Shown: positions 17,850-31,998 of the stretch, piece by piece | Numbering within the stretch: position 1 is the stretch's first letter | Layout: every line of letters starts with the position of its first letter | Origin: a virus | Virus record (IMG/VR): IMGVR_UViG_3300042323_000977 | Location: 1 to 38,480 of that record | DNA length: 38,480 nt | Direction: 5' to 3' (one strand) | The notes under the pieces: generated by a model | Told to the model about the DNA's origin: nothing | Databases searched by the model: none | What the model saw: the letters and a program-made list of their open reading frames with translations, nothing else | Made by a program: the position numbers and the translations under genes

Positions 17850-19165
17850 CGCAACACCCGGGCGCCGCCGCCCCTGAACCCGGTCAACACTCGGGCGGGC
17901 CCGGTGTTCGGCCGGCGCGCGATGGCGGAACGATCGACCACAAGCCCGTGTTTGATCGCCTGATGACTGAGGCTGAACGCATCCGAGAAATGCGAAGCCC
18001 AGTCATGCACTGGCACATCCTTGATCGTCACCCCGTCGCGCTCCTCCTTCGCGTGGTAGGCGTCCAGCGCCTCGATGCCGTCGCCGCATCCGCTGGCGTT
18101 GAAATGCGCGCGCGGGAATGCGTCCTGGGCGAGATTGATCCCGTCCCAGACCGAGTGCTGCCGGGGCACCGGCACCACGTTGGTCAGTCCTGCCACCCCC
18201 AACGCCTCTTCCCAGAGCCCGCCATTCTGCGCGGCGGCGTCGTGCGGGATAAAATGCGCCCCGTAGGCGTAGCGCTTCGCCTTGAGGTAGCCAGCCCAGT
18301 CAGCCGGTGTTCTGCGATCCTCGCCGCCTGAGAGGGCTTCGAGGTAGTTGATCCGGTCGCCCACAAGCTGCCAGATCCAGAGCCGCTGGTTCTGCGGGGC
18401 GCCCACGTCCCAGCTTGTGTAAACCGGCAGCTCCTTGAACCACAGCACATCGTCCGACACCCGGCGCGCGGCCCGTGCGGCTTCGAGGTGGCTCGCGTAG
18501 ATCGCGCCCGGCCGTCCCACGGCGAAGCTGCATTCATACTCCTGGGCAAACGTGTGCGGGGGCGTCCCGTTGCGGATGTCGGCGAGCTCGGACGCTGGCA
18601 GAATCCCCGAGTCGCTCGCGCGCAGAATCAGCGTGAACCAAGCCGGATCTTTGAGCGCCTCGCTCCACAACCGCCAGAATTGGTTCCGGCCCTTTGGGGT
18701 CCCGATGAACGTCGCCCATCCGGTGTAGTCGCTTAGACACGGCCGAATGACCGCGTGCCACGCGGCCGGGTCAATATCCGCGTATTCGTCGATGACAACC
18801 CCGTCGAGATACAGCCCCCGCATGCGTTCGTAAGACTCGCCGGAGTAAAGCCGAATCGACGCCCCGCTTGGCAGGATCACCACCAGATCCGCCTCGTTGA
18901 TGCGCACCCCCGGAATCTGTCCGAGAAACTGCTTGATGTAGCTCCAAGCGATGTCCTTGGCCTGATCGCGCGTCGGGGCCACGTAGGCGTAACGCAGGGG
19001 CGGCCCGGGGCGGGTGTGGGTCAACGCCCGCAGAATCAAATCTTGAATGCAGCAGAATGTCTTCCCGCCCCGGCGATGCACGACCATGCAGGCCCAGCGT
19101 TGGCTGCGTTCCAGGTAGCCCCGGAACTGCTCCCGAGGTTCGATCTCAACCGTGATCCGGGCCAC
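17846..19165 (-). CDS. terL: terminase large subunit (439 aa)
   Basis: The packaging motor ATPase and nuclease. The ATPase part shows a deviant Walker A VHRRGGKT (29-36), Walker B GVVIDEYAD (122-130, catalytic E127) and the coupling motif FIGTPKG (153-159). The nuclease part shows SWDVG (D253), HDAAAQ and a closing HDWASHFSDAFS segment with the last acidic ligand. The start is taken as GTG at 19165, overlapping the small subunit by 20 bases, because sequence further upstream only mirrors the terS frame. Family: Terminase_6/6C-type. Confidence 0.9.
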   Translation of the reverse strand: MARITVEIEPREQFRGYLERSQRWACMVVHRRGGKTFCCIQDLILRALTHTRPGPPLRYAYVAPTRDQAKDIAWSYIKQFLGQIPGVRINEADLVVILPSGASIRLYSGESYERMRGLYLDGVVIDEYADIDPAAWHAVIRPCLSDYTGWATFIGTPKGRNQFWRLWSEALKDPAWFTLILRASDSGILPASELADIRNGTPPHTFAQEYECSFAVGRPGAIYASHLEAARAARRVSDDVLWFKELPVYTSWDVGAPQNQRLWIWQLVGDRINYLEALSGGEDRRTPADWAGYLKAKRYAYGAHFIPHDAAAQNGGLWEEALGVAGLTNVVPVPRQHSVWDGINLAQDAFPRAHFNASGCGDGIEALDAYHAKEERDGVTIKDVPVHDWASHFSDAFSLSHQAIKHGLVVDRSAIARRPNTGPARVLTGFRGGGARVLR

Positions 19166-19541
19166 TGCGTCCCCCGATTTTGACCACGATGTCCACCTCG
19201 CCCGCGTGTTCGACCTCGACCTTGTCCCCGTATTTCTTCGGGGCGATCTTGGAGGCCGCCCACTTGAGCGCATCCATGCGGAGCCTGCCAAGCTGCGCGT
19301 CTTTCGCGGTGCGCGCCTCCTCCAAGATCATCTCGGCGAACGTGTCCGCCTGCTTCGCGCGCGCGCGCACATACTGGTCGCGAAGTTCCGGTCGTTCCTC
19401 GACCAAATCCAGAAACATGCCCTTTGATGGGAACCCTTTTGTTTTACAAATCTCGATCAGCGTTTTGCCCTCGGCGAGTTGGCGAAACACCTCGGCGAGC
19501 GTCTCGCTCGGAATGTCTGCGCGCTTGATTCGCTTCGCCAT
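19146..19541 (-). CDS. terS: terminase small subunit (131 aa)
   Basis: The N-terminal helix-turn-helix-like part (LAEVFRQLAEGKTLIEICKTKGFPSKGMFLDLVEE) is typical of small terminases that recognise the packaging site, followed by a helical oligomerisation part (QYVRARAKQADTFAEMI, LRMDALKWAASKIAPKKYG). The WxxxKxxPKKYGDK ending is a common signature of Sf6-type small terminases. It overlaps terL and is the first gene of the late block. The repeat element at 19591-19703 lies directly upstream and could hold the packaging or late-promoter signal. Confidence 0.85.
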   Translation of the reverse strand: MAKRIKRADIPSETLAEVFRQLAEGKTLIEICKTKGFPSKGMFLDLVEERPELRDQYVRARAKQADTFAEMILEEARTAKDAQLGRLRMDALKWAASKIAPKKYGDKVEVEHAGEVDIVVKIGGRSGPDHG

Positions 19542-19590: not shown

Positions 19591-19703
19591 TTGAAGGCCC
19601 AAAAGGCCAAGGCCAATAAATACCCCCCTAAAGGGGGGTTATTGGCCTTCTTGGCCTAAGGCCAGAAAGGTCAATTTGGCCCTTCTTGGCCTTATTGGCC
19701 TAA
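19591..19703. repeat. hairpin/repeat element A
   Basis: A 9-bp outer stem GGCCAATAA (19611-19619) pairs with TTATTGGCC (19639-19647). Inside, after a 3-base bulge, C6 (19623-19628) pairs with G6 (19633-19638) around a TAAA loop. Further GGCC words lie on both sides (TTCTTGGCC, AAGGCCAGAAAGG, CTTATTGGCC). No T-run follows on either strand, so it is not a classical terminator. It fills the whole gap between the early and late operons. Confidence 0.85.
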
Positions 19704-20989
19704 ACGCGCCTTTTTGCCCTCCATTCGCCGGGTTCTGCCTTCGATTCCTCCACCCATTTCAGGTCCTTGAGCCGCTCCCATTTGGTCTTGAACGTGGACG
19801 TTGACCAATCGGCCGCAACAGCGCGCTTGAGCATCTCGGAATAAGTCACCTGCTCATCTCCCATCATTTTGAGCAGTTTCTCCGGCGACCACACCTCAAC
19901 CCGCCCCTTGCGCACAGGCTCAGCCTCTGGCAACTCGTCCGCCTCTGCGGGCCGCCAGCAAATCGACCCCGGCTCTTTGGCGTGTGCGATCGACCGGTGA
20001 TAGATGCGTTCCCCCTCTTCGCCCACCCAACCCGCCCGGGCGCCGCGTTTGCCAAGGACCAGCTGAAAAACCTCATGAGAGCCCAGCCCCCGCACGGCCA
20101 CAACGGCCCGGGCCCAGTTGGCCCATTCCGCGCTGCCGCTGCCGAGGTATGCCAAGTCATTGCCAGCCCATGTCGCCTTTTCCTGCCCGCTGGGCGGCTT
20201 GTTGGTGTGATGCACGATCACCGTGGCGCAGTCGTATTTGTGGAGGATGGGGTTGAGCCCGTTGCGGAGGAATCCGCCGACAACCTCCTGGGATTTCACA
20301 TCGCCGCCGATGTAGGCAAGCGCCGGATCCAGCCAAAGAAGATCCATCGTCGCCGAGGCGGCAATCGGCTCGACCACCTGGGAGAGAAACGCATCCCCGC
20401 TCAGGGTGTCGCAAGTGTGCACGCTCACGTTCGCGAGCGCCTTGGCCTGCTCCTGCGCAGACAGACGAAGCCCCCGGATCACGCCGTCGCGCATCTCAGC
20501 CAAGTCCCCGTCGTCGTTCTCCGCCTGAATGAGCACCGAACGCAGGGGACGCGCCGGGCGAAGCCCGAAACATTCCCGGCCCAACGCCCAGAGGATCATG
20601 CATTGCATAGATAAACTCGATTTCCCGATGCCCGAGGGGCCCACCAGCAGCATTCCCCCGCCCTTGCACAGAAACCTGTCCTTGATGAGCTCGTCCGAGT
20701 CGTCCTTTGGCCGTTGCAGGCTGGCTAATGACCGAGTGAGCACCGGGGCGGCCGGTGTCGGCTTCTTCTTGGCCTTGGCGACAATGTCCCCAGGGCTGCC
20801 CTCGGCGAACCATCCGCAATATCCGCAACGGCACGCCCCCTCGATGACGTCGAGCGGCTCGGGCTCCGGGCAGGCCGGGCAAACAAACGTCAGCGCGCCG
20901 CTGCCAATGCTGGCCGACGCATAGAGATCCGCAGCGCGCCATGCGTGGTAGAGCTGCTCTTCAAAGGTGGTTGGGGTGGTGGTGGACAT
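19700..20989 (-). CDS. zinc-ribbon RecA-fold ATPase, replicative helicase/RepA-like (429 aa)
   Basis: Last gene of the early operon. An N-terminal zinc ribbon uses C37, C40, C53, C55 and C58. A RecA-like AAA_25 domain has Walker A GPSGIGKSS (117-125), Walker B LLWLDP (D221) and a sensor-like VIVHHTNKP segment near 258. The C-terminal part looks like a winged-helix (VTYSEMLKRAVAADWSTSTFKTKWERL). Such proteins act as hexameric replicative helicases. The start MSTTTPTTF is chosen because the frame upstream only mirrors the primase gene, which it still overlaps by 100 bases. The pairing with the primase implies a joint replication module. Confidence 0.8.
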   Translation of the reverse strand: MSTTTPTTFEEQLYHAWRAADLYASASIGSGALTFVCPACPEPEPLDVIEGACRCGYCGWFAEGSPGDIVAKAKKKPTPAAPVLTRSLASLQRPKDDSDELIKDRFLCKGGGMLLVGPSGIGKSSLSMQCMILWALGRECFGLRPARPLRSVLIQAENDDGDLAEMRDGVIRGLRLSAQEQAKALANVSVHTCDTLSGDAFLSQVVEPIAASATMDLLWLDPALAYIGGDVKSQEVVGGFLRNGLNPILHKYDCATVIVHHTNKPPSGQEKATWAGNDLAYLGSGSAEWANWARAVVAVRGLGSHEVFQLVLGKRGARAGWVGEEGERIYHRSIAHAKEPGSICWRPAEADELPEAEPVRKGRVEVWSPEKLLKMMGDEQVTYSEMLKRAVAADWSTSTFKTKWERLKDLKWVEESKAEPGEWRAKRRV

Positions 20990-21966
20990 TGGAAAAAGGG
21001 ATCGAAAAAGAAAACTTCTTGGCGGACTTCCCCGGGGGTCTCCCATCCGGGGGGTAAATAAGCTTCTGGGGCAGGCGGCGCGGACCGCACCCCGCCTGGG
21101 AGCCGGACCAACTGGCACCGGGTCCAAGTGGCCGGATCCGCGCCCAGCCTCACGGCCTCGGTCATGAGCTCCCGGGCGTGCTCCTCGCTCTTGCAAGGGC
21201 CATACCAGCCATGGAGGGATTTCCCCCCCGAATGCACGGCCAACCGCAACTGGGGCCAGCCCAGTGCCTCGGCAACGGCCTTGAGATACCAATGGATCGC
21301 CGCCTGTTCATCCAGGCTGCCGCAATCAAACTCCACCACTAGCCAGCGCCGGGGCCCGGTGTTATCGAGCGAGCGGTGAGTGAGTCGCCCGTCGAGCCCG
21401 CGCCCGCTTGTGCCGGTCATGGGACTGGGGACCACCAGCCCGCACCCGTCAGCCTCTCCCCAGCGCGCCCGGCTCCGGGTCCGTGCCGTGCCGGGATGCC
21501 CTGCGGCGAGGCAAAGCCATTCCGCATCGGGCAACAGAGCATTGAGCCACTGCATCGCGCTCTGTTGCGGAGGCTCCACCGGGCTGCGGTGAAAAAGATC
21601 CACCAACCCGCCCACGCCGTCGCGTTTGGATGCCGCCACCATGGCCGCCCGGTGGCCAGGCTCCGGCTTTGGCCAACGCTCCGCGCTGGCAGAACGCCGT
21701 GGGGCCGCTTCCTGCAGGTCCGGCGCATCCTTGTCGGCCGGCGCTTGCCACGCGATCTCCCGTGAATTAGCAACCGCGTCTCGGATCTCCCGGGGCGTCA
21801 CCCTGCGGGCCGCTCCAGCGGTGGCGGCAGTCAGGGCGGCTTCGATCACCGGCCCGGGCATATGGGCATGGAGTTGCCGGGCGACCGCGAACAGCCAGGC
21901 ATGAATCCCGGCGCCCGCCGTCGGCGGGGACGCGAGCTTTTCCACCAACCATTGAGGGAGACTCAC
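20890..21966 (-). CDS. archaeo-eukaryotic-type primase (AEP) protein (358 aa)
   Basis: The C-terminal half carries an AEP-like pattern: WLVVEFDCG (acidic motif, 212-214), LAVHSGGKSLHGWYGP (SGG...HGWY motif, 246-255) and CQLVRLPGGVR (284-294). The N-terminal 100 residues contain a helical domain with TPREIRDAVANSREIAW. It is translationally coupled (GTGA) to the 95-aa gene. It presumably makes primers for the adjacent helicase. The first acidic motif has only E212 and D214, so whether it is an active primase or primase-polymerase is inferred. The last 35 residues lie in the overlap with the ATPase gene. Confidence 0.7.
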   Translation of the reverse strand: MSLPQWLVEKLASPPTAGAGIHAWLFAVARQLHAHMPGPVIEAALTAATAGAARRVTPREIRDAVANSREIAWQAPADKDAPDLQEAAPRRSASAERWPKPEPGHRAAMVAASKRDGVGGLVDLFHRSPVEPPQQSAMQWLNALLPDAEWLCLAAGHPGTARTRSRARWGEADGCGLVVPSPMTGTSGRGLDGRLTHRSLDNTGPRRWLVVEFDCGSLDEQAAIHWYLKAVAEALGWPQLRLAVHSGGKSLHGWYGPCKSEEHARELMTEAVRLGADPATWTRCQLVRLPGGVRSAPPAPEAYLPPGWETPGEVRQEVFFFDPFFQCPPPPQPPLKSSSTTHGALRISMRRPALAAAR

Positions 21967-22250
21967 GAGAGCACCCCCGCCAAGATCTCCGAAATCTCAA
22001 CCCCAGCCTGCTCCCGGTAGCCGCGCCGGAGCACGGGTGCCAACACCGGGAGGAACCCCTCAAACGCATCGGCCCCCTGTTGGGTGGCATAAACGAACAC
22101 CATCCTGTTTTCCCGCCCGTCACGTTCCCAGGCGATGGCCCGGAGAGCGCCGCGGAGGTTGATCTCGAGCCCCCCGTTGGCCGGGACTTGGCCCAGTATC
22201 CAATCCACAGCTGCCTGCACCCCCTGAGTTTCCGCCGCGTGTGTGCTCAT
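21963..22250 (-). CDS. hypothetical protein (95 aa)
   Basis: Coupled by 4-base overlaps to the helicase upstream and the primase downstream. It contains a mixed alpha/beta pattern (LEINLRGALRAIAWE, then RMVFVYATQQGADAFEGFLPVLAPVL). No family was recognised. Its place inside the replication module suggests a replication accessory role, but nothing in the sequence shows one. Confidence 0.7.
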   Translation of the reverse strand: MSTHAAETQGVQAAVDWILGQVPANGGLEINLRGALRAIAWERDGRENRMVFVYATQQGADAFEGFLPVLAPVLRRGYREQAGVEISEILAGVLS

Positions 22251-23773
22251 GACCGGCCCCCGATCCTCTGGCCGATCACGTAACCCGCCTGCTCCCGAGT
22301 CATGAGTTCCGCATTCGGGTTGCCCAGTCGGCGCAACAGCATTACCTGCTTCGGTGTCGCCAGCCCCATCTCCGCCCGGTGGGCGAGCCGGTCAATCAGC
22401 TTGGCCGCAAAGCCCCGCGTCATCCGCTCGGTCCAGATCCCCGCGCGGGAAAGCACGGCCAGCTGATTCTCCGTCGGCGGTTCCTCCTCCCAGGGCATCG
22501 TCGGTTCGTATTCCTCAAGGTCGCTGTCATGGATACCGACCGCCCACGCAAGCGGATCCACAAGACCCTTGGGCGCTTTGCGGTTCTTCGCAGCCTCCTC
22601 CAGCTGGGCAGCGAGGGCCTGCTCCACATCCACCTTCGCGCGCGCCTCGGCCTCGAGGATCTCCGCGCCTGCGTCGAGGTGCGCTTGGAGCGCCTTCTTG
22701 TGGGTCTCGTTGGGGGCGGAAATGTCCGCCGGCTGACAGAGGGACAAATCCCCGCTCAACCAGAGCGGATCCAAGAGCAGGCAAAACTCTTTGCCCGGCG
22801 CCGTCCGCGTGCCCCGGCCCACAATCTGGCAATACAACGCCCGGCTCTTGGTGGGGCGCAGGCACAGAATACAGTCGATGTCCGGCTGATCGTAGCCCTC
22901 GGTGAGCAACATGGCATTGCAAAGCGCCGTGCCCTGTCCCGCGCGCCGGAACCAGTCCAGCCGGTCGGCCCGGTCCTCACTGCCCCCGTCCACGTGCCGG
23001 GCGTCGATCCCCTCCTCCGCCAGCGCTTCCGCGAATTTCTCGCTCACATCGCACCTGGGGAGAAACACCAAGGTTTTCCGATCCCAGATCTCCGAAGCGG
23101 CAGCCCGGGCGACTTCCCGCAACCGAGGCTCCAGCAGACTGCTGGCGACGTCTGCCGATAAATCCGAGCCGCTGCGCAGCTTGATTGAGCGGGCGTCAAT
23201 TTCGACAGGGAGCCGAAGGGCCCTCAGATTGCAGAGGTGCCCGGCGCCGATGAGTTCCAGCAAACCGATCTCAAACGCGACGTTTTGGTAAAACGCCCCG
23301 AGCGATTTGCGGTCGGCCCGGTCGGGGGTGGCAGTCACCCCCAGCACGCGCGCAGTTTCAAACCGCCCGAGCACCTCCTGCCATTCCTCCGAAAGACTGT
23401 GATGAGCCTCGTCGCAGATGATTAGATCAAACGCATCCGGATCGTACTTGTGCAGCCGTCGCCGGACACTCTGCACAGACCCCACCACCACGCCGTGCCC
23501 AGGCATGGCCGTAGATGCGCCCTGTTCGACCGCTGCAAAGATCCCCGTCGCCGCGTGCAACTTCCCGGCGGCCTGCTTAACCAACTCCTCCCGGTGCGCC
23601 AGGATCAGCGTGCGGCCCGTCTCAGCGGCGGCGATGTGCGAAAAGATCACGGTCTTGCCGCCCCCGGTGGCTGCAATGCCCAGCTGGCGCTGGAACTGGC
23701 TCCAACCGGCCGCCACGGCGTCCACTGCCCGCTGCTGGTAGGGCCTGAGCGGCATTGAGAACGAGGCGCTCAT
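22247..23773 (-). CDS. SF2 DEAH-box helicase (508 aa)
   Basis: Complete superfamily 2 helicase motifs: RPYQQRAVDAV (Q-motif region), ATGGGKT (motif I, 35-41), DEAH (motif II, 121-124), TATP (motif III, 147-150) and QIVGRGTR (motif VI, 316-323). The layout matches the RadD/YejH-like and phage DEAD/DEAH helicases used in replication or recombination. The last 110 residues form an acidic linker and a helical tail with a PPTENQLAVLSRAGI segment and an ATPKQVMLLRRLG segment, which look like a repeated short helical motif. Confidence 0.88.
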   Translation of the reverse strand: MSASFSMPLRPYQQRAVDAVAAGWSQFQRQLGIAATGGGKTVIFSHIAAAETGRTLILAHREELVKQAAGKLHAATGIFAAVEQGASTAMPGHGVVVGSVQSVRRRLHKYDPDAFDLIICDEAHHSLSEEWQEVLGRFETARVLGVTATPDRADRKSLGAFYQNVAFEIGLLELIGAGHLCNLRALRLPVEIDARSIKLRSGSDLSADVASSLLEPRLREVARAAASEIWDRKTLVFLPRCDVSEKFAEALAEEGIDARHVDGGSEDRADRLDWFRRAGQGTALCNAMLLTEGYDQPDIDCILCLRPTKSRALYCQIVGRGTRTAPGKEFCLLLDPLWLSGDLSLCQPADISAPNETHKKALQAHLDAGAEILEAEARAKVDVEQALAAQLEEAAKNRKAPKGLVDPLAWAVGIHDSDLEEYEPTMPWEEEPPTENQLAVLSRAGIWTERMTRGFAAKLIDRLAHRAEMGLATPKQVMLLRRLGNPNAELMTREQAGYVIGQRIGGRS

Positions 23774-24126
23774 CGCGCGCCCCCTTCTTTGCGCAGCAAC
23801 TGTAATGCGCGCTCTATTTCACCGATGTCCCTCTTTGCTGAATCTAGGTTGTAAACAAGATGCGACGTCGTTCCCGCCCGGCTCACTCGATGAAAATGTT
23901 CGTCGCGCCAATGCAAACACTCGCGTGCGCACTTAAGACCGATCTCAGCGGCGTGAATCGCCTGCTCCCTCGCTTCATCGCGCTCGCGCTCCAGTTTGCG
24001 AGCCAAGTTTCTCATTTGTTCGAGCCTATCCCCATGCCAGAATCTGAAGTCACGGGCTGGCTGTAGTCGCTGAATGTCTTGGCAGCGTTCGAGCGCATCC
24101 GTCTCCGGCGTAGGTCGGTCGCTCAT
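23770..24126 (-). CDS. hypothetical coiled-coil protein (118 aa)
   Basis: ATGA overlaps on both sides. It begins with a PTPETDALERC segment, a start seen in many small phage proteins, and continues with a charged coiled coil (LARKLERERDEAREQAI) and further helices. No enzyme motif; function unknown. Confidence 0.65.
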   Translation of the reverse strand: MSDRPTPETDALERCQDIQRLQPARDFRFWHGDRLEQMRNLARKLERERDEAREQAIHAAEIGLKCARECLHWRDEHFHRVSRAGTTSHLVYNLDSAKRDIGEIERALQLLRKEGGAR

Positions 24127-24428
24127 TGCGCGCCCCCTTCCTCTTCCAGTATCCGCTCCAGCTCAGCGACGAGAAACGCGGCTGCGGTTGCGATCTCGTC
24201 TTTGATGGTGGCCTTGGCCGGACGCGTCCAGAGGTCTTTGGGGACTTTGCGCCCCTGAGACTTAATCAGAAACTTGACGAGCTCAGGCCCCACTTGTTCG
24301 AGGTTCAACATGCGGCACAGGCCCATGTCAGCGAGCCCGCCCGCCGGTAGCTTTTTCAGCGCGTCTTTGTGTTCGGTCTCTAGGCGCTCGCGCGCCTGCC
24401 AGATTTGTTCGATTGCTTCGGAGGTCAT
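24123..24428 (-). CDS. hypothetical protein (101 aa)
   Basis: A helical, charged protein (IWQARERLETEHKDALKKL at the start; VAELERILEEEG at the end) in a chain of 4-base overlaps. No recognised domain. It may bind DNA or another replication protein, but this cannot be shown from the sequence. Confidence 0.65.
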   Translation of the reverse strand: MTSEAIEQIWQARERLETEHKDALKKLPAGGLADMGLCRMLNLEQVGPELVKFLIKSQGRKVPKDLWTRPAKATIKDEIATAAAFLVAELERILEEEGGAQ

Positions 24429-24607
24429 TTGCGCTGGATTTCGTAGGTCATGGAAACGGTGATTTTGACGGGCTCGCTCTCTTCGCGTCCCTCCTCCAGC
24501 TCCTCAGCTACGTAAGCGAGAATGGCGTCTTGCTGAGCTTCGAGGCTCTTCCTCAGTTGGCCTGTCATGTCGTGCGCGATTGCGCGCACTAGTGAATGTC
24601 GGATCAT
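24425..24607 (-). CDS. hypothetical protein, short paralogue of the next gene (60 aa)
   Basis: It aligns along its length with the N-terminal 55 residues of the 180-aa neighbour: both have a hydrophobic start with a LA-H-M segment, an AQ..ILA/R core and then an acidic stretch leading into S/EEPVKxxV. It looks like a tandem duplicate retaining only the N-terminal unit. Coupled by ATGA at both ends. Function unknown. Confidence 0.65.
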   Translation of the reverse strand: MIRHSLVRAIAHDMTGQLRKSLEAQQDAILAYVAEELEEGREESEPVKITVSMTYEIQRK

Positions 24608-25146
24608 CGCGCCGCCTCCCCGTCATCTTTCGCTGAGGCCTCGTTCTCACCCTTCCGCATACACGCGGCGAGAGCGGCGTCGATCTTCTCGACGTCCTCT
24701 TGTGCAGGTTCCCTCCGATAAACCCCGTCTTCGGCCTTCAGGAATCCGACGTCGGCGAGCGTGGCTTCCACCTTCTGCTTCATTTTTTCGAGGCTTCCAG
24801 GCGTCACGGTGACAGAGTTAATCCGCTCACCATCCGGCCCCAGGCGGCTGATTGTGATGCTCGTTGCATCCAGCGGGAGCTTCCCCTGTTTTGGGTCCTC
24901 CAACGGATGCTTCTCCTTCACGCTCGTCCGCGTCGTGAAAGAAAACGCGGTCTCGACCGTGTTCGCGTCCAGGTTGAGCACCCCCCGCAGCGTGACACCG
25001 AATTTGACGGGCTCCTCCGAGTCCGTGCCGGTCTCCGACGCCTTCGCGATCGCCCTGAGTATTTCCTCCTCCTGCGCGCCGATGGCGTCGGCGAGGTCGT
25101 CCTGCATATGTTGCGCCAGTTGTTTTAGTAAGTAGTTCTTTGACAT
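24604..25146 (-). CDS. hypothetical protein (180 aa)
   Basis: The start MSKNYLLKQLAQHM is used; an upstream in-frame start at 25212 would add 22 atypical residues. Helical N-terminus (1-40), a beta-rich centre (KFGVTLRGVLNL, VETAFSFTTRTSVKEKH), then ITISRLGPDGERINSVTV and a charged helical end. Its N-terminal part is paralogous to the preceding 60-aa protein. Strand-forming central repeats resemble small phage DNA-binding accessory proteins, but no family is claimed. Confidence 0.65.
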   Translation of the reverse strand: MSKNYLLKQLAQHMQDDLADAIGAQEEEILRAIAKASETGTDSEEPVKFGVTLRGVLNLDANTVETAFSFTTRTSVKEKHPLEDPKQGKLPLDATSITISRLGPDGERINSVTVTPGSLEKMKQKVEATLADVGFLKAEDGVYRREPAQEDVEKIDAALAACMRKGENEASAKDDGEAAR

Positions 25147-25262
25147 TTTAAGAGTTGGTTTTGGGAAAGGGTCCCTGCGTCCAAGCCGACCGGCTCGAAA
25201 GGCGCGGTTCACAGCTCACAGGGAGCACGCGCCCGGCAATTTTGCCCGCAGGGATAAATGGG
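25147..25262 (-). other. intergenic gap with small palindrome
   Basis: This 116-base gap breaks the chain of overlapping early genes. It contains the perfect 12-base palindrome GGCAATTTTGCC (about 25238-25249). It could be an internal promoter or processing site for the distal half of the early operon; no -35/-10 pair was convincing. Confidence 0.3.
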
Positions 25263-25421
25263 TTACTTGTCCTTCGACATGCGGCGTTCCACGCCCTTCG
25301 TGATGCGTGCGAGAAATGCCTTTTCGCGCGGTGTCCGCTTAATCACCTTATCGCAACTGGCGGAGAACTCCTTCATCTCCGCCTTGCTGGGCATGTCGCC
25401 GGATTTGCGTCGTTTGCTCAT
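25263..25421 (-). CDS. small basic protein (52 aa)
   Basis: ATG at 25421 overlaps the upstream stop (ATGA). The product is rich in Lys/Arg (MSKRRKSGDMPSKAEMKEF, then a TPREKAFLARITKGVERRMSK segment). It is missed by length cut-offs near 60 residues, but the overlap and composition support a real gene. Probably a nucleic-acid-binding accessory protein; inferred from charge only. Confidence 0.6.
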   Translation of the reverse strand: MSKRRKSGDMPSKAEMKEFSASCDKVIKRTPREKAFLARITKGVERRMSKDK

Positions 25422-25657
25422 GAGCGGAATTTCTCACAGAGCTTGAGCACCATCTCCAAAGAGCGCTGGTTGAGATACAACTGCGCGGAGTGGTTTGCTT
25501 GGAGGTCGCCCACGATGCCCGCAAACTCCGAGCTCTGATGTTGCAAGGGCCCCATGATCGCCTCGCGAAGCTCCTTGAGCGCGGAAACGGCCTCGGTTTT
25601 GCCGTTGATGTCATTCACCGTGATCCGGTCGTTAAGGATCTCGAGGATCTTGCTCAT
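25418..25657 (-). CDS. hypothetical protein (79 aa)
   Basis: A soluble helical protein (SKILEILNDRITVNDING at the start; EAVSALKELREAIMGPL; SLEMVLKLCEKFRS at the end). Coupled to both neighbours by 4-base overlaps. No family recognised. Confidence 0.65.
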   Translation of the reverse strand: MSKILEILNDRITVNDINGKTEAVSALKELREAIMGPLQHQSSEFAGIVGDLQANHSAQLYLNQRSLEMVLKLCEKFRS

Positions 25658-25794
25658 AGGCCCCCCTTCGCTTTGCGGATGATCGCCCAGAGCGCGCAGG
25701 CAAACGCGATGCTCAGCAGGCCCAGCGACCAGCGCCGGGAGGGACTCCTCTGGTTACTCAGCCAGAGCGGTGTCTTGATGTTCAGAGATTTCAT
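25654..25794 (-). CDS. small membrane protein (46 aa)
   Basis: A very short gene exactly filling the space between the resolvase and the 79-aa gene, with ATGA-type overlaps at both ends. After a basic N-terminus (SNQRSPSRRWS) it has one hydrophobic helix (about residues 23-40, LGLLSIAFACALWAII) and a Lys-containing tail. A single-pass membrane protein is predicted; role unknown. Confidence 0.55.
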   Translation of the reverse strand: MKSLNIKTPLWLSNQRSPSRRWSLGLLSIAFACALWAIIRKAKGGL

Positions 25795-26165
25795 TCAGGG
25801 ATGATTGTGATTTCGATGCGCGGGAATTTCTCGACTTCGGTAAAGGTGGGCCGCTCGGGCCAAAGGTCTTTGTCGTTTGCAACGATCCCGGCGTCCGCCA
25901 GGCCGTCGATGTAGGATTTGAGGCTTGCGATCAGGTTGTCCGGATCCGGCTGGCGGTTTCTCGGACCGAGAAAAACGGCGGGGTGCAGCTTGGCTTTGCC
26001 CCACCGAGGGGGCGGGCACCCGTCGAGCACCCGCACCGCCTCGATCCTTGCAGCCCCCCGGGCCGCTTTGACCATCCGGGCCTTGATTGCCCAGTGACTC
26101 CGCGCATTGGGCGACAACCGGCGATCCGGCAGGGGCAACTGGAACGTGAGCGCCTCAAAACTCAT
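25791..26165 (-). CDS. rusA: RusA-like Holliday junction resolvase (124 aa)
   Basis: RusA-family pattern: an N-terminal beta strand with LSPNARSHW, then PDPDNLIASLKSYIDGLADAGIVANDKDLW. The acidic metal ligands correspond to D74, D76, D87 or D98, with K83 in the usual DN..K.. position. RusA resolves four-way junctions during phage recombination and replication and debranches DNA before packaging. The C-terminus EITIIP is the final strand. It overlaps the DUF669-like gene by 11 bases. Confidence 0.85.
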   Translation of the reverse strand: MSFEALTFQLPLPDRRLSPNARSHWAIKARMVKAARGAARIEAVRVLDGCPPPRWGKAKLHPAVFLGPRNRQPDPDNLIASLKSYIDGLADAGIVANDKDLWPERPTFTEVEKFPRIEITIIPE

Positions 26166-26535
26166 CGAACACGTAGGCCGCGATCTTGTTGCTTTTGTTC
26201 CCGTTGTGCTCCTCGACTTTCAGCACGGCCCGAAACTCCCAGCCGATCATCTCCTCGCAGTCCAAGGAGAAATCCAGACCCGGCCCTGGGTGTTTGGCGC
26301 AGGCCGATAAAAACTGGTCGATTCGGAACAACGTCTTTTCCGAAAAGACCAAGTATTCAAACAGGGAAACCCCGAGCGTGCCGTCTCCATTCACGACTCG
26401 GCACTTGAGCTTGATCATGTCGTTGTTGCTCTTGGAGGTTTCCTCCACGGCGTCCATGACGTTGAGGGTGTATTCACCCGGCGGAACGTGGAATTGCAGC
26501 GCCTCCGGGGCCTTGGTTTTGTATGTTAAAGCCAT
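26155..26535 (-). CDS. DUF669-like ssDNA-binding-type protein (126 aa)
   Basis: PPGEYTLNVMDAVEETSKSNNDMIKLKCRVV and LFRIDQFLSACAKHPGPGLDF, followed by GWEFRAVLKVEEHNGNKSNKI, reproduce the usual layout of DUF669 proteins, a phage family found next to single-strand annealing or Sak4-like recombinases and thought to have an OB-like, ssDNA-binding role. The neighbours support this. The start is ATG at 26535, with no clear ribosome-binding site. Confidence 0.7.
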   Translation of the reverse strand: MALTYKTKAPEALQFHVPPGEYTLNVMDAVEETSKSNNDMIKLKCRVVNGDGTLGVSLFEYLVFSEKTLFRIDQFLSACAKHPGPGLDFSLDCEEMIGWEFRAVLKVEEHNGNKSNKIAAYVFDEF

Positions 26536-26618
26536 GTCGTTTGTATGTTGGTTGTTGTTTGTTTTGGCGCGCGTCTCTCCGCGCGGTCACGCCTGATTGC
26601 CCGGCATTCGGCGGTTGA

Positions 26619-27596
26619 TTAGTTGCCCGACTTGGGCTTCCGAATGGTGATGTAGGCGGACCCTGGGCTTTCCATGACCGCCTCTTCGGGAAACGGTTTC
26701 CCCGGTAGTTTGCGCCCCCAGATCTCCCGCAGCTTGGCTTCACTCATAGGGCCATAAGCGGCCAGCACATCGGCCACCCCGAGCGCGGCCAGATTGAGCT
26801 CCACCACCCGCTCCGGAACCTTGCGGCTTCCCCGTTTTGATGTGATCGAAACCCCGGAAACCTTCTCCCCGGCGATCAGACGCGACTTGAGAATCCCGCG
26901 CGCTTCGTCCGCGAACTCCTCCACGATCCCGGCCCGGGTCACAAACTCCCGCAGAAGCTCGCTTGGGAGCGATTCCAGAAGCGCCTTTTCTCCGATCTCC
27001 ACCAGCCCCAGCGATTCCCGACGCGGGGCGCAGGTGAACCGATTGGAGCACCATCCGCAATACTCGTTCAACGTGGGCGGCTCCCCGGAAACGCCCTTGG
27101 CAATCGCCGCGCGCACGGCAGCCTCCGCCGATTCCCGGGTGAACCGGAGCGTCTCCACTTCGCGCAGGTCGCAATAAAGGAGGTAAACCGTCCACTCATC
27201 CGCAAACGTGCGGTCCATGTAGCCCAGCGCGTAAGCGGCCTGCTGCTCCAGGTAGTTGCGTTTCTGGCCGCTCTTGAGGTCGGCGGACCAAAGCAACTCT
27301 TCACAAAGTAGATCCCCGGTGCCCACAAGCCCGAGTGCCTCGATCCGCAGCGAGTCCTCATTCGCGTCCAGCGGTGAGCCGTTTGCAAGGGCTCTAGCCG
27401 TGGCCACAGCCCAAGCAACCGCCTCAATTTCAATCGTGCATAAATCCTGCAAAGCCATCCACCCGTTCTCGATGGCGTCACGAAATGCCACGTCCAGCCG
27501 GGTGCCACGTTCCGCGGCTTCGCCCGCAGGGGCGCTCCGGAACGAGCCGCAAAGCGCCAGCTTGGGCAGGATGGACGGGCGAAGAAAATCGTTCAT
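26619..27596 (-). CDS. PD-(D/E)XK exonuclease, DUF2800/Cas4-like (325 aa)
   Basis: A RecB-type nuclease core: ERGTRLDVAF (29-38), E86, GTGDLL (D95), then SADLKSG (D106, K108) and LEQQAAYALGY (116-126). Four cysteines, C16 plus C180, C183 and C189 (YCGWCSNRFTC), are placed as in Cas4/AddB-type iron-sulphur nucleases. DUF2800 proteins have this arrangement and act with phage recombinases. It likely makes the ssDNA tails on which the recombinase acts. The C-terminal part (SEAKLREIWGRKLPGK) is a small helical domain. Confidence 0.8.
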   Translation of the reverse strand: MNDFLRPSILPKLALCGSFRSAPAGEAAERGTRLDVAFRDAIENGWMALQDLCTIEIEAVAWAVATARALANGSPLDANEDSLRIEALGLVGTGDLLCEELLWSADLKSGQKRNYLEQQAAYALGYMDRTFADEWTVYLLYCDLREVETLRFTRESAEAAVRAAIAKGVSGEPPTLNEYCGWCSNRFTCAPRRESLGLVEIGEKALLESLPSELLREFVTRAGIVEEFADEARGILKSRLIAGEKVSGVSITSKRGSRKVPERVVELNLAALGVADVLAAYGPMSEAKLREIWGRKLPGKPFPEEAVMESPGSAYITIRKPKSGN

Positions 27597-27877
27597 TCCG
27601 CGCCCTCCTCTCTGGTTTCCTTTCCGCCGCCATATCTGACTTCTAAAGCGAGCTCAGAAACAAAATCAGCAGCCTGCTTCAGCTCTTCAACGTCCGCGCT
27701 TATTGAATAAGCCAACTTTTTGCAAAGCGGCCTTTCCACTCCCATTTCTCGCTTGTATCGGAAAAGGCATTCCTCGGCGTATTTTTGGCCGGCCCTAATT
27801 GAATTCTCGATCTCAAACAAGTCCTCGACGGTGAGCCATTCGGGCCACGGATTAGCCTTGGCTTTCTTGGCACTCAT
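27593..27877 (-). CDS. hypothetical protein (94 aa)
   Basis: A charged helical protein beginning MSAKKAKANPWPEWL, with two amphipathic helices (EDLFEIENSIRAGQKYAEEC and DVEELKQAADFVSELALEV). 4-base overlaps on both sides. No recognised family. Confidence 0.65.
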   Translation of the reverse strand: MSAKKAKANPWPEWLTVEDLFEIENSIRAGQKYAEECLFRYKREMGVERPLCKKLAYSISADVEELKQAADFVSELALEVRYGGGKETREEGAE

Positions 27878-28035
27878 TCCGCACCCTCCTCGCGTTCAGA
27901 GCGCCGCCCGTTGAGATACCCCTGCGCCGTGCCGATCCGTTCCCCGTCGGCGTATCCGTTTTTGTAGGCGGCGACCGCCAACCAAAGGGACGCCATAACC
28001 AGCAGCGCCCAAGAGACAATTCCGGCCGCAATCAC
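27874..28035 (-). CDS. small single-pass membrane protein (53 aa)
   Basis: GTG at 28035 in a GTGA overlap with the recombinase stop, ending in an ATGA overlap with the next gene. The N-terminus is one hydrophobic helix (residues 2-22, IAAGIVSWALLVMASLWLAV), followed by a polar tail (KNGYADGERIGTAQGYLNGR). Exact fit into the operon supports translation. Function unknown. Confidence 0.55.
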   Translation of the reverse strand: MIAAGIVSWALLVMASLWLAVAAYKNGYADGERIGTAQGYLNGRRSEREEGAE

Positions 28036-29075
28036 GCTGCCACCTCCTGAGGAGCGACAACCTTGAGGAACCCAGCGGGGTTCTTGACCACACGGGCCGC
28101 GTAAGAAGGGGAGACATCCCGGAACGTCTGCCCGGGCTGGATCTGCTTTTGCCTGAGAAGGTAGGCGTTCACCAACTCCTCATGCGGCGCGCAGACCCGC
28201 TCAAGCTCCGCATTGCCAGCCGGGGCCGCTTTCGGCGCCGGGTTCTCCACACCGGGAATCTCGTCATCCCCAGCGGACTCAACCACAGGCGCGGCCACCG
28301 GCTCCGGAGTCGCTGCGGGCTGCCCCCAGGGCGCGCCCACGGAGCGGAAGGCGCGCTCAACCGTGGAGATGTCCCACTTCTCCACCTCTGCCAACCCGTG
28401 CCGGTTCTTGGCGTCCCAAGCGGCCGCCCGGGTGCAGTGCATGAGCCGTTCCCGGCCGCCCACTCCCTGGAGCTTCCCGGAGTTCTTCTCCCGGATCTGG
28501 GTTTTCCAATTCCCAAAAAGCAGGGCGTCGGCCCACTCCTTGATGAGCGGCGAAACGTGTTTGGTCAGCTTGAGCTCATACCGGTCATACGCCCCCTCCC
28601 CGTCGGGCGGCTCGAACTTCGTCACCTTGCTGTGAGCCAGGAGGACGACCGTGATCCCCGCAGCGACAACCGCATCCAGCCGGCTGAGAAGGATCGTCAC
28701 CCGCTCTTTCAAAAGGGTGTAGCCCTTCCCATAGCCGAAGTCTTCCACCCCTTTGATCTTGGGGCTGGCCGCGTCGGCCACGATGGCATCCAGCGCCATC
28801 GACTCCAGCCAATCCACAGTGTCCACGATCAGCGTCCCGCATGGGCGGGCCTTTGCGACCTCTGAGAGCGCGGTTTCGACCGCCCGCAGGTCAGGCAGGT
28901 CCGCCCGCTCGATCCGGTCAACGTCGAGTTGCGACGTGCTGCCCTCGACATCGAGAAACAACGGGTTCGGGAATTGGCTCGCCAAGGTGCTTTTGCCGAA
29001 TCCCTCGGGGGCGTAGATGACAATTTTCTGAGCCCGGCCCTTTTTGCCTGAGCTGATTTTGCTGAGTATGGACAT
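28032..29075 (-). CDS. Sak4-like RecA-fold recombinase ATPase (347 aa)
   Basis: The compact AAA_24/Sak4-type core has Walker A YAPEGFGKST (21-30), an early LFLDVEG acidic motif (40-45), Walker B TLIVDTVDWLE (D85) and VVLLAHSK (sensor). Sak4 proteins are phage single-strand annealing/recombination ATPases typically paired with DUF669 or SSB-like genes and a nuclease, exactly as here. The start is ATG at 29075; the longer open frame upstream mirrors the HTH gene. The C-terminal 110 residues are a Pro/Ala linker and a small domain ending in FLKVVAPQEVAA. Confidence 0.75.
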   Translation of the reverse strand: MSILSKISSGKKGRAQKIVIYAPEGFGKSTLASQFPNPLFLDVEGSTSQLDVDRIERADLPDLRAVETALSEVAKARPCGTLIVDTVDWLESMALDAIVADAASPKIKGVEDFGYGKGYTLLKERVTILLSRLDAVVAAGITVVLLAHSKVTKFEPPDGEGAYDRYELKLTKHVSPLIKEWADALLFGNWKTQIREKNSGKLQGVGGRERLMHCTRAAAWDAKNRHGLAEVEKWDISTVERAFRSVGAPWGQPAATPEPVAAPVVESAGDDEIPGVENPAPKAAPAGNAELERVCAPHEELVNAYLLRQKQIQPGQTFRDVSPSYAARVVKNPAGFLKVVAPQEVAA

Positions 29076-29119
29076 GGTGGTGGTGGTTTTTGGTTGGTGG
29101 TTTTGCTGGCCCGAGCGGG

Positions 29120-29299
29120 TCAGCGGAGAAACGAAGCGAGGAGATCCCCGCGAAATCGCCAGGAATGCCCGATCTTCCGGGCGCCGGGGAGCTGCCCCAG
29201 ACGGGCGAGCTTCCGGGTGTGATACTCGGAGAACCCGAGCACCGCAGCGGCCTCGGCGAGCGTTAGCATTCGGGTTAGTGGCACGGTGGAGCGGCTCAT
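29120..29299 (-). CDS. MerR/HTH_17-type excisionase-like DNA-binding protein (59 aa)
   Basis: Residues 11-58 are a textbook HTH_17 domain: LTLAEAAAVLGFSEYHTRKL (helix-turn-helix), then GQLPGARKIGHSWRF (wing) and RGDLLASFL. Proteins of this size in temperate phages are often excisionases or small regulators. It overlaps the RHH gene by ATGA and has an AGAGGA ribosome-binding site. An operator-like palindrome lies 35-47 bases upstream, inside the RHH gene. Given the tyrosine integrase elsewhere, it is the best Xis candidate, although it is not next to int. Confidence 0.8.
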   Translation of the reverse strand: MSRSTVPLTRMLTLAEAAAVLGFSEYHTRKLARLGQLPGARKIGHSWRFRGDLLASFLR

Positions 29300-29478
29300 T
29301 TGTTCCTCTCAATGCGTCTTTTTCCGGGCGTTGACTGTCTGACAGTTTGAGGCGAAAAAAAACTCTGCCTAAGCCGATGCACGACAACGTTGGAAAACGA
29401 ACGGTCGTCGGTGTCGGCCTCGGCTTGAATTCGGTTTGCAAGTTCTATTGGGAAAGCGAGTGTTTTTCGTGTCGTCAT
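29296..29478 (-). CDS. ribbon-helix-helix regulator 1 (60 aa)
   Basis: Arc/CopG-type pattern: RKTLAFPIELANRIQAEADTDDRSFSNVVVHRLRQ, with the beta strand TLAFPI and two helices. It is clearly paralogous to the RHH protein encoded upstream. The start ATG (29478) is only about 9 bases from a predicted -10 box, so the mRNA would be nearly leaderless. The palindromic operator sits between -35 and -10, which fits autoregulation by RHH dimers. Confidence 0.75.
   Translation of the reverse strand: MTTRKTLAFPIELANRIQAEADTDDRSFSNVVVHRLRQSFFSPQTVRQSTPGKRRIERNK
29334..29346. promoter_or_regulatory. operator-like palindrome O1
   Basis: ACTGTCTGACAGT, a 13-base palindrome identical on the other strand to ACTGTCAGACAGT. 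It lies inside the RHH 1 coding sequence (codons for TVRQ), upstream of the HTH_17 gene. It is one of three copies within 416 bases and none were noticed elsewhere. Confidence 0.65.
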
Positions 29479-29487
29479 CGGTGTGAA

Positions 29488-29515
29488 AAAATAAGCAACT
29501 GTCAGACAGTTTCAA
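29488..29515 (-). promoter_or_regulatory. promoter with embedded operator O2
   Basis: -35 TTGAAA (29515-29510), 16-base spacer, -10 TATTTT (29493-29488) on the minus strand, upstream of RHH 1. The perfect 15-base palindrome AACTGTCAGACAGTT (29497-29511) covers the spacer and the edge of the -35. A dimeric repressor bound here would block RNA polymerase, so the operon is probably repressed from this site. Confidence 0.6.
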
Positions 29516-29523
29516 GAAAAAAA

Positions 29524-29730
29524 TTAAGCCTTTTTCCTGCTGTGTTTCCACGTCGTGTTCTTGCGCAAAAACTCCCGCGCTTCCGGATATTGCATCGCGA
29601 GTCGCTCAAGCACGGCCCGGGTGAAGTCGCCGCCAAATTTCTCGTCGGCCTCGGCTTGAATGGCCGCAGTCAAATCAGCCGGGAGGCTTAATGTCTTGCG
29701 CGTCCTATCTTTGGCTCTGCCCTCAGTCAT
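29524..29730 (-). CDS. ribbon-helix-helix regulator 2 (68 aa)
   Basis: Same type as RHH 1: RKTLSLPADLTAAIQAEADEKF followed by a second helix (FTRAVLERLAMQY) and a basic tail (KHSRKKA). ATG at 29730 is preferred; a GTG at 29748 would add 6 residues but would place the start inside the operator. First gene of the early operon. It probably controls its own transcription and that of RHH 1, whose promoter carries the same operator. No other repressor-like protein is visible, so these two are candidates for lysogeny control. Confidence 0.75.
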   Translation of the reverse strand: MTEGRAKDRTRKTLSLPADLTAAIQAEADEKFGGDFTRAVLERLAMQYPEAREFLRKNTTWKHSRKKA

Positions 29731-29736
29731 TCCAAC

Positions 29737-29749
29737 ACTGTCAGACACT
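29737..29749. promoter_or_regulatory. operator-like palindrome O3
   Basis: ACTGTCAGACACT, matching the consensus ACTGTCAGACAGT in 12 of 13 positions, just upstream of the RHH 2 ATG. A -35-like TTGACT lies at 29765-29770 on the minus strand with the operator at the expected -10 distance, though no good -10 hexamer is visible. Confidence 0.6.
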
Positions 29750-29823
29750 TTCCGATGGTTTGCAAGTCAAGTTTTCCAGTCACCCCCTGCGCCATTCATT
29801 CCGGCCTGACGCCATCACAGCGA

Positions 29824-29874
29824 GGGGACAAGGGACATTCCCCCCCCTTTAGGGGGGGTGTCCCTTGTGTCCCC
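29824..29874. repeat. hairpin/repeat element B1
   Basis: AGGGACA (29831-29837) pairs with TGTCCCT (29859-29865). Inside, a C run (29840-29847) pairs with G7 (29852-29858) around a TTTA loop. An outer GGGGACA (29824-29830) can pair with the TGTCCCC-type word at 29868-29874. The stem word differs from the other elements but the architecture is the same. Confidence 0.8.
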
Positions 29875-29883
29875 AACTTCCCA

Positions 29884-29998
29884 GAGTCGGTGCCAGTGCC
29901 AAGTGCCATAATTCCCCCCTAAAGGGGGGTTATGGCACTTATGGCACCAACTCGGCATAAGTGCCAAAAAGCCAATATGGCACTTATGGCACCAACTC
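29884..29998. repeat. hairpin/repeat element B2
   Basis: The 11-bp stem AAGTGCCATAA (29901-29911) pairs with TTATGGCACTT (29930-29940). Inside, C6 pairs with G6 around a TAAA loop after a 2-base bulge. An outer arm of 12 bases (29884-29895 with 29942-29953, one mismatch) extends the pairing. The 23 bases at 29931-29953 recur directly at 29976-29998. Confidence 0.85.
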
Positions 29999-30116
29999 AA
30001 AAACAGCCCCCGACGCGCCCCGGGGTGTGAAAATGTTCCACAAGCCTCCCTCGCCCGCTGCCCCATTGCGCCGCTGAGGCCAAGAAAACACTCGTCACAT
30101 GTTGCCAGGAATGCCA

Positions 30117-30226
30117 AGGCCAGAAATCCCTCCCCCCCTACGGGGGGGAGAAGGGAGTTTCTGGCTTTCTTGGACCCAATAAGGCCAGAAAGGTCAAATT
30201 GGACTTATTGGACTTATTGGCCTTGA
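30117..30226. repeat. hairpin/repeat element C
   Basis: GCCAGAAA (30119-30126) pairs with TTTCTGGC (30058+100, i.e. 30158-30165), TCCCT pairs with AGGGA, and C7 (30132-30138) pairs with G7 (30142-30148) around a 3-base TAC loop. The following 46 bases (30181-30226) closely match 19658-19703 of element A (AAGGCCAGAAAGGTCAA shared exactly), so A and C belong to one dispersed family. Confidence 0.8.
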
Positions 30227-30325
30227 TCAAAAAAACCCATGAAATCTTGTGGAACATTTTGAGGAAAACGCACCCCACCGGGAAGCCTTGAAAAACGCCC
30301 CCCGCCCCTTCACGTTGGTATCACC

Positions 30326-30801: not shown

Positions 30802-30829
30802 TTTTTGGGGCGGTTTGTGGCCTATTTTG

Positions 30830-30848
30830 TGGCAGCAAAGTGGCAACA
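30830..30848 (+). promoter_or_regulatory. candidate integrase arm-type site, P' side
   Basis: TGGCAGCAAAGTGGCAACA, one mismatch from the block at 30620-30638. It ends 7 bases before the integrase ATG, so Int binding here could also repress int. Confidence 0.5.
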
Positions 30849-30855
30849 GATCCCA

Positions 30856-31998
30856 ATGGCTAAGCCCCTCTTCTCGGTCTCGCAAACGGTTCTCAGGGGG
30901 GAATCTGTCTGGGTGGCGTCGATTTCTCAGAGGGTCACGGGGAAACGGCATCGGATTTTCGCGGGCTCAAAAGCGGAGGCCACCCGGTCGGCGAATGAGT
31001 TTCTTGCCTCGCATCAGCAGTTCGGCGCCGAGGGGCAAATCAACGCTCAAGAGCGGGCGTTGCTGGCTCGCTGGCGGGGGCGGCTGAGCCTGGACGAAAT
31101 GGAGCACGCGTTGCGGGTGGCGTCGGAAAAACTGGCAACAACTGGCAGCAAAACCGTTTTGGAGGCTGCGGAGCTTTGGCTGGAGGAGCAGAAACTCGGG
31201 TGGAAACCCCGAACGCTGACCGGGAACCGGCAGCAAATTGGGATCCTTTGCCGTGAGCTCGGGGAGCTGCCCTTGGAGGAGCTCACTCCGGACCAGATCG
31301 CCCAGCACATCCGCGCGCGCGGGGCGTCGGCCCGGAATCAGTGGGGTGTTGTGGCGGCGTTTTTGCGGTGGTGTCGGACGCCGAAGGGGTGGATGTCGGG
31401 GAACCCCATGGAGCAGCTCCGGCCACCCGCCCGGCAGACGAAACGCAAGGAGGTGTTCACCCCGGAGGATCTGCGGGCGCTTCTGGAGAGCTCCCCCGCC
31501 CCGTTCCGGCGTCTGATCGCGTTGCAAGCCCTCGCCGGGTTGCGGCATTCGGAGGCGGTGCGCGCCCAGGTGAAGGACTTGGACGTTGATCAGGGGATTC
31601 TCTATGTGGGCGAGCTCAAGACGTCCGCCCGGGGGCTCCGGGAGCGGTATGTGACGCTGCCGCCGGCCGCGCTGGCGTGGTTGCGGGCGTCGGACCTGGG
31701 CAAAACCGGGCGGATTGTCGGGGCCAACGAACGAAACACCCGGCGGTGGATTGAAGACGCGAAGGCGGTTGTGGGGCATTGGCCGCACAACGTGCTGAGG
31801 CGGTCGTTCGGGTCGCACCATTTGGCGGCCTATCACGACGCGGCACGCACGGCGGCCCTGATGGGGCACACCAGCGCGGAAACCACTTATTCTAAGTATT
31901 ACCGGGCAATTCCGCAGCCCGTCGGGGCGGCTTGGTTTGGTGTGTTCCCCTTAGGTGGGAGAGATGGGAGGAATGCGAATAAACGACCCGCAGAATGA
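30856..31998 (+). CDS. int: tyrosine integrase (380 aa)
   Basis: Site-specific recombinase for integration at tRNA-Thr. The C-terminal catalytic part shows R230 (AGLRHSEAVR), H311 and R315 (PHNVLRRSFGSHH), a MGHTSAETTYSKYYRAI box and the likely nucleophile Y349. The central core-binding domain has WLEEQKLGWKPRTLTGNRQQ. The N-terminal 60 residues (SVSQTVLRGESVWVASISQR, then KRHRIFAGSKAEA) look like an arm-binding domain. ATG at 30856 is preferred to an in-frame start at 30805. Its 3' end overlaps the endolysin 3' end by 48 bases on the other strand. Confidence 0.92.
   Translation: MAKPLFSVSQTVLRGESVWVASISQRVTGKRHRIFAGSKAEATRSANEFLASHQQFGAEGQINAQERALLARWRGRLSLDEMEHALRVASEKLATTGSKTVLEAAELWLEEQKLGWKPRTLTGNRQQIGILCRELGELPLEELTPDQIAQHIRARGASARNQWGVVAAFLRWCRTPKGWMSGNPMEQLRPPARQTKRKEVFTPEDLRALLESSPAPFRRLIALQALAGLRHSEAVRAQVKDLDVDQGILYVGELKTSARGLRERYVTLPPAALAWLRASDLGKTGRIVGANERNTRRWIEDAKAVVGHWPHNVLRRSFGSHHLAAYHDAARTAALMGHTSAETTYSKYYRAIPQPVGAAWFGVFPLGGRDGRNANKRPAE

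Follow-up and report, generated by a model that had tools for sequence, protein, structure and literature searches.

The stretch of viral DNA analyzed here (IMG/VR record IMGVR_UViG_3300042323_000977, positions 1 to 38,480; hereafter, the window) contains four hairpin elements. Our main finding is that these are very probably double-stranded DNA replication-origin modules, each composed of iterons and a hairpin, and bound by the phage's own initiator helicase, a RepA-like protein of the RecA-fold AAA_25 family. Comparison of sequences strongly supports the iterons, the hairpin, the linkage to the 3' side of the helicase gene, the conservation of structure, and the coupling between iterons and the presumed recognition helix of the helicase. 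We infer that the elements function as an origin, and that the hairpin is a helicase-loading or priming site.

An earlier note on this DNA had described four hairpins, each with outer arms pairing with one another and with copies of its own word around it; all four were found at the coordinates it gave. Element 1 (19591-19703) lies directly 3' of the helicase gene. Its core, ACCCCCC-TAAA-GGGGGGT, occupies 19622-19639 (the C6-TAAA-G6 part being 19623-19638), and its outer stem is AAGGCCAATAA/TTATTGGCCTT; iterons of the forms GGCCAATAA, GGCCAAGAA and GGCCAGAAA start at 19611, 19639, 19648, 19660, 19683 and 19692, and a second dyad spans 19657-19694. Element 2 (29824-29874) has a C8-TTTA-G7 core at 29840-29858, which forms the hairpin C7-TTTA-G7, and the outer stem GGGACA/TGTCCC, while element 3 (29884-29998) has a C6-TAAA-G6 core at 29914-29929, the outer stem AAGTGCCATAA/TTATGGCACTT, GTGCCA iterons and a three-way fold. 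Element 4 (30117-30226) is built around C7-TAC-G7 at 30132-30148, within a wider core, CTCCCCCCC-TAC-GGGGGGGAG, at 30130-30150; its outer stem is GGCCAGAAA/TTTCTGGC(T), and its iterons resemble those of element 1. The two outer arms of each element pair with one another, and the surrounding copies of the word form iterons in both orientations that reach past the hairpin. Separate from these iteron words, a perfect 15-bp inverted repeat (AAAATGTTCCACAAG/CTTGTGGAACATTTT at 30030-30044 and 30246-30260, 201 bp apart) brackets element 4, and one of its arms is also present in the related contig L126.

The four hairpins are real, far beyond chance. No other hairpin with runs of five or more C and G was found in the window, and the core pattern, with up to three mismatches allowed, has 13 matches where 0.77 are expected. 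Three window hairpins combine an inner stem of 6 bp or more with an outer stem of 7 bp or more, compared to none in 50 shuffled windows. Folding z-scores on the plus strand are -6.4, -4.7, -9.3 and -5.1 for elements 1 to 4, respectively.

When the 16-base core alone was scanned over viral contigs, it gave at least 120 matches, compared to 26 for a reversed, G-to-C control pattern. Many of these matches have their own flanking word and an inverted copy of it. Among the matches listed, to which the viral counts that follow refer, 57 of 120 had an outer stem of 6 bp or longer, versus 3 of 120 once arms were swapped between loci. Clustering of the neighboring proteins revealed one dominant family, present at 61 loci and lying a median 131 bp away from the hairpin: that of the AAA_25 helicases, which often have a primase beside them or are fused to a CHC2/Toprim primase. 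AAA_25 was found in 69 of 100 hairpin records versus 5 of 26 controls with the reversed pattern (p = 8e-6). Relative to the AAA_25 gene, the hairpin lies 3' in 58 of 62 cases, 5' in one and inside the gene in three, usually 30 to 300 bp past the helicase stop codon, and there is usually one copy per locus. Cellular genomes show the same placement, 3' of the gene at 39 to 241 bp, in all 18 loci that have an AAA_25 gene. Many phages that are otherwise unrelated share this arrangement of iterons and hairpin just past the gene, on its 3' side, where it is unannotated. Named phages among them are Rhizobium 16-3, Idiomarinaceae 1N2-2, Salicola CGphi29, Alteromonas XX1924, Rhodoferax P26218 and Roseobacter CRP-823.

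Four copies in one window could also point to a selfish palindromic repeat, similar to REP (repetitive extragenic palindromic) sequences or MITEs (miniature inverted-repeat transposable elements), that spreads through phage genomes; indeed, the 16-mer core recurs in an unrelated Bacteroidales repeat. It is most improbable that the elements are of this kind, as they keep to a fixed place beside a single gene family and their word differs from phage to phage, which is not the pattern of one sequence dispersing, and as a single copy per locus is the usual state. Three side observations concern the core scan and its control. Most of the core matches in cellular genomes belong to the Bacteroidales repeat just mentioned (L187-L302), which is abundant, has the pattern CCCCCCnnCCCCCCTAAAGGGGGG, and is devoid of outer stems and AAA_25. 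Two matches of the reversed-order control, L171:7610 and L180:10187 (GGGGGGTAAACCCCCC), likewise follow an AAA_25 helicase on its 3' side, no more than about 1 kb away, and more copies of GGGGTAAA surround the one in L180. Finally, near-identical hairpins with the word GAACGGG occur at the C6-TAAA-G6 core in L012-L014, L055, L061, L088, L096, L116 and L118; most of the contigs of this group that were tested have a weak, divergent AAA_25 match only, in some cases 0.4 to 1.6 kb away.

In reverse tests, loci were picked by the helicase protein and not by the hairpin; an alignment of 15 diverse AAA_25 proteins proved too divergent for a locus search. Among relatives of the window helicase, 9 of 23 loci have a hairpin with C and G runs of at least five at 40 to 116 bp past the stop codon, and several loci outside these nine carry variant hairpins, such as CCCCTAT...ATAGGGG. 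The relative L130 gave the first impression of lacking the element, which was overturned when two clusters of GTCCAATAA iterons, each with a hairpin, were seen there, one of them about 1 kb downstream. The family of L093 has a C-TTTA-G hairpin in 67 of 76 loci, at a constant position about 115 bp beyond the stop codon, with its loop 120 to 124 bases past that codon and with stems as different as CCCCCCC/GGGGGGG, ACACACC/GGTGTGT, CCCCATC/GATGGGG, CTCTTTC/GAAAGAG and CCGCTTC/GAAGCGG; all seven stem positions are Watson-Crick paired in all 11 distinct sequences, versus 0.61 with arms swapped. Relatives of L037 have C-TAAA-G at 72 to 80 bp, and there the iterons shift together, from CCCCAA to CCTCAA, with the right arm changed to match. 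By comparison, none of 74 regions upstream of helicase genes contained a hairpin with C and G runs of four or more.

Stems thus vary while their pairing is kept, and what is constant is therefore the apical C-TTTA-G together with the pairing, rather than the C-run. The run of C and G is one version only, and the apical C-TTTA-G (or C-TAAA-G) loop persists. The earlier note had taken the whole core as constant: the shared loop and pairing stand, but the C-run/G-run does not, as the stem varies in relatives. Selection on the fold, which it had deduced from the window, is supported by the 36 distinct outer-stem words among 37 paired stems and by compensatory stem changes at a fixed site, and the clustering beside RecA-fold and primase genes that it predicted is what we observed.

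The iterons provide the second line of evidence. Repeated 7-mers are significant in 70% of 43 regions downstream of the helicase gene, element 1 being significant as well, compared to 0% of upstream and 2% of coding regions; the downstream regions hold 48 repeated-7-mer pairs, versus 11 in shuffles. When helicase pairs with similar cores are compared, the similarity of their iterons declines from 0.77 through 0.17 to 0.00 as C-terminal similarity drops, with a partial correlation of 0.55 with the C-terminus and of 0.19 with the core. The window helicase and that of L127 have near-identical cores (0.98), but differ in winged helix and iterons (GGCCA versus GGGACA). In the L093 family, a scan of the whole 672-residue protein showed that loci with GGTAAC are best told apart from those with GGGAAC by residues 627, 633 and 634, all situated in the presumed recognition region of the winged helix. 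At position 627, all 39 GGTAAC loci have Gln and all 36 GGGAAC loci have Val, with no exception in 75. The two traits change 12 times on a tree built from the remainder of the protein, and nine independent pairs are all concordant (p = 0.004). It is by this covariation that the helicase appears to have a DNA-binding domain specific for the repeats, and we propose its C-terminal winged helix (19715-19885, minus strand; residues 370-426, presumed recognition helix WSTSTFKTKWERL) as the reader of the GGCCAA iterons in the window.

Iterons that appear to be read by the helicase C-terminal domain would also suit a protein-binding site with a regulatory role only, that is, an operator or copy-control site of the helicase, comparable to crr of phage P4 or the inc iterons of plasmids, and not an initiation point. 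Plasmid iteron arrays also serve control, and the window has two elements with its own word, 10.5 kb apart. A simple operator, however, needs no conserved hairpin with compensatory change, and the site is 3' of the gene rather than at the helicase promoter; we consider a purely regulatory site unlikely.

Two of the roles first suggested for the elements, a replication origin or a DNA hairpin recognized by the AAA/primase pair, are strongly supported by the 3' linkage to AAA_25, the iterons and the covariation with the recognition helix. The third, an RNA regulator, fares worse. An RNA element could act in the helicase transcript, as a 3' untranslated region (UTR) hairpin, a terminator or an attenuator, or it could be a regulatory RNA, and the position of element 1 3' of the helicase gene, its weakly terminator-like character on the gene strand and the strong RNA folding z-scores would fit such a role. 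Yet internal mismatches in the outer stems show no wobble bias (GT 7, AC 6), the polarity of the TTTA/TAAA loop relative to the gene varies between families, and iterons outside the stem that covary with the helicase recognition helix disfavor an RNA element. Elements 2 to 4, moreover, are upstream of their flanking genes. No Rfam match in the window reached the gathering score. An RNA element is on this evidence quite improbable as a general explanation. A terminator scan flagged none of the C-run cores of elements 2 to 4, but element 1 may have a minor transcriptional role, because it is weakly terminator-like on the gene strand.

In the origin model that we favor, a module consists of a hairpin flanked by iterons of both orientations. 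The outer stem of the hairpin would itself be an inverted iteron pair, and the apical loop most often reads TTTA or, as the complement, TAAA. The RepA-like AAA_25 helicase, whose gene immediately precedes element 1, would bind the iterons through its C-terminal winged helix, and the bound helicase would assemble at the site, where the hairpin would be extruded or exposed as a cruciform or a single-strand hairpin. The helicase ring could then load, and the adjacent or fused primase would start synthesis. Since the primase type varies and the hairpin stays, a role of the hairpin in helicase function or DNA opening is more likely than one tied to a particular primase.

Elements 1 and 4 carry the word of the resident helicase (GGCCA). 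Against the model, elements 2 and 3 carry words (GGGACA and GTGCCA) unlike it. The word of element 2 is that of the relatives L127-L129; conversely, L129 has an GGCCAATAA element, some 11 kb away from the GGGACA origin of its own. L126 retains element 4 (97% identity over 158 bp) and lacks element 3, and its element 2 is degenerate, without the C-run hairpin. Elements 2 and 3 are probably captured or decaying origin copies of another specificity. Also against the model, two relatives, L137 and L143, are without a clear hairpin, and in some AAA_25 phages (Caulobacter GB2A, Mycobacterium Thonko) the 3' gap is very small or missing. Part of the covariation could stem from linkage between the C-terminal codons and the DNA next to them, and joint recombination of the gene end with the origin could couple the two; yet residues nearer the origin discriminate less, and strong discrimination is confined to residues of the recognition-helix region.

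Nucleotide skew speaks partly for and partly against the model. The cumulative GC skew of the window has its maximum at 15,120 and its minimum at 30,531 (p about 0.005), which adjoins elements 2 to 4 and not element 1, and a change of gene strand near 30.8 kb contributes to the switch. In 37 other contigs, the GC skew flips at the hairpin in two only, versus 17% in controls; as a general origin test, the flip failed outside the window. Among minus-strand genes of the window, GC skew at third codon positions has opposite signs on the two arcs, as a start near elements 2 to 4 would predict. The switches in sign fall near 15 kb and between 29 and 33 kb, which suggests an origin and a terminus in the phage genome.

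The helicase gene (19700-20992, minus strand) encodes about 430 amino acids (Pfam AAA_25, E = 5.5e-18). In an AlphaFold model, the protein has an N-terminal Zn-finger-like region, the helicase core and the C-terminal winged helix, the latter with three helices and two strands, and with block pLDDT (predicted local distance difference test) values of 86 to 93 across most of the domain. Its best fold match in the PDB is to RSF1010 RepA chains (Z 20.5, 213 residues); a PDB sequence search found no relative of either the helicase or the adjacent primase, and a tblastn search among named phages gave no match to the helicase. The upstream partner of the helicase (20890-21966, minus strand; 358 amino acids) is probably a primase of the archaeo-eukaryotic type (AEP), judging from the motifs VEFD, SGGKSLHGW and RLPGGVR, which are conserved in A3. 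This primase-like protein had no Pfam or PHROG match, and its structure model is too poor to confirm the assignment; it is fused to the helicase in some relatives, for example L019.

On the minus strand, the gene order is probable AEP primase, RepA-like helicase, element 1 and terminase small subunit (19146-19541; Sf6_terminase, E = 7.8e-29). Elements 2 to 4 lie between a leftward and a rightward group of genes, upstream of both. The first large gene to their left, on the minus strand, is that of a Sak4-like recombination ATPase of the AAA_24 family (28032-29078, start estimated; phrog_124, E = 6e-45; AAA_24, E = 5.9e-43), and to their right is a phage integrase gene (30805-31998, plus strand; phrog_1, E = 5.5e-43), which indicates a temperate phage. 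That element 1 adjoins the terminase gene and elements 2 to 4 the integrase gene raises the alternative of packaging (pac/cos) or integrase arm-type sites. Across phages, however, the constant neighbor is the helicase rather than the terminase or the integrase, and neither of these two is the next gene in 16-3, 1N2-2 or CRP-823; sites of this type are a very unlikely explanation.

Almost no phage genome has its replication origin annotated. A signature made of iterons and a C-TTTA-G hairpin 30 to 300 bp 3' of an AAA_25 helicase locates candidate origins by sequence alone, and is usable in many contigs and several isolated phages. It also suggests how a DnaB/RepA-type helicase could load without a separate loader or iteron protein, and a readable specificity code, relating recognition helix to iteron, could account for replicon incompatibility and for the exchange of modules between phages. 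We tentatively advance, as a possibility somewhat short of an even chance, that phages of several bacterial phyla share an undescribed class of origin. In this class, a RepA-type helicase would recruit and load itself, its winged helix reading private iterons, and a TTTA-loop hairpin formed from an inverted iteron pair would be the loading and priming gate whatever the primase (Toprim, CHC2 or AEP). One recognition-helix residue would set incompatibility between close relatives, and phages such as the present one would also carry origin copies of foreign specificity. Our literature search did not find this arrangement described for AAA_25 phages, a weak absence since subscription papers were mostly outside its coverage, and it returned no paper matching the core sequence.

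Known systems share parts of this organization. In phage P4, the alpha protein unites a primase, a helicase and a winged helix by which the repeats of the origin are read, and these functions may be combined here as well. The P4 helicase is of the superfamily 3 (SF3) type, and to our knowledge no conserved hairpin has been described at the P4 origin. The helicases of the Staphylococcus aureus pathogenicity islands (SaPI) and of the staphylococcal cassette chromosome mec (SCCmec) are again of another type, AAA+ initiators resembling SF3 and MCM proteins. In these helicases (SaPI Rep and Cch2), the C-terminal domain binds iterons directly 3' of their own gene (PMC7581432). Iterons 3' of the helicase gene, specificity that would reside in the helicase C-terminal domain, and a separate or partner primase are common to SaPI, SCCmec and the present phages, but here the helicase is a RecA-fold AAA_25 protein (RepA/SF4), and a conserved TTTA-loop hairpin of an inverted iteron pair stands among the iterons.

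In pRN1, a stem-loop 54 bp 3' of the orf904 primase-helicase gene is necessary, sufficient in cis and movable, and the model was extended by its authors only to the SF3-type phage BIP-1 (PMC4234260). The position of the stem-loop, a structure kept as the sequence changes and a C-terminal winged helix are features in common; indeed, an element 3' of the gene with its structure, not its sequence, retained was found in 58 of 62 (among the matches listed), 18 of 18 and 67 of 76 loci. The two differ in that pRN1 joins an SF3 helicase and an AEP primase in one protein, while the window helicase is of the AAA_25/RecA-fold type, and in that pRN1 has no iterons and a stem-loop of about 100 nucleotides. 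At oriV of RSF1010 (IncQ), RepC binds iterons, RepA is the helicase, and the RepB' primase starts at the ssiA/ssiB hairpins, exposed by RepA (PMC4434180, PMC4234260). RSF1010 resembles the window in its RepA-like RecA-fold helicase and its iterons plus hairpin, and probably in an AEP-type primase, which in the window would be encoded beside the helicase; it differs in its separate RepC, as iteron binding here appears to be fused to the helicase, and in its two hairpins, one per strand, instead of one hairpin per element amid iterons. The present class combines features of SaPI/SCCmec, pRN1 and RSF1010 with a different type of helicase and a conserved loop.

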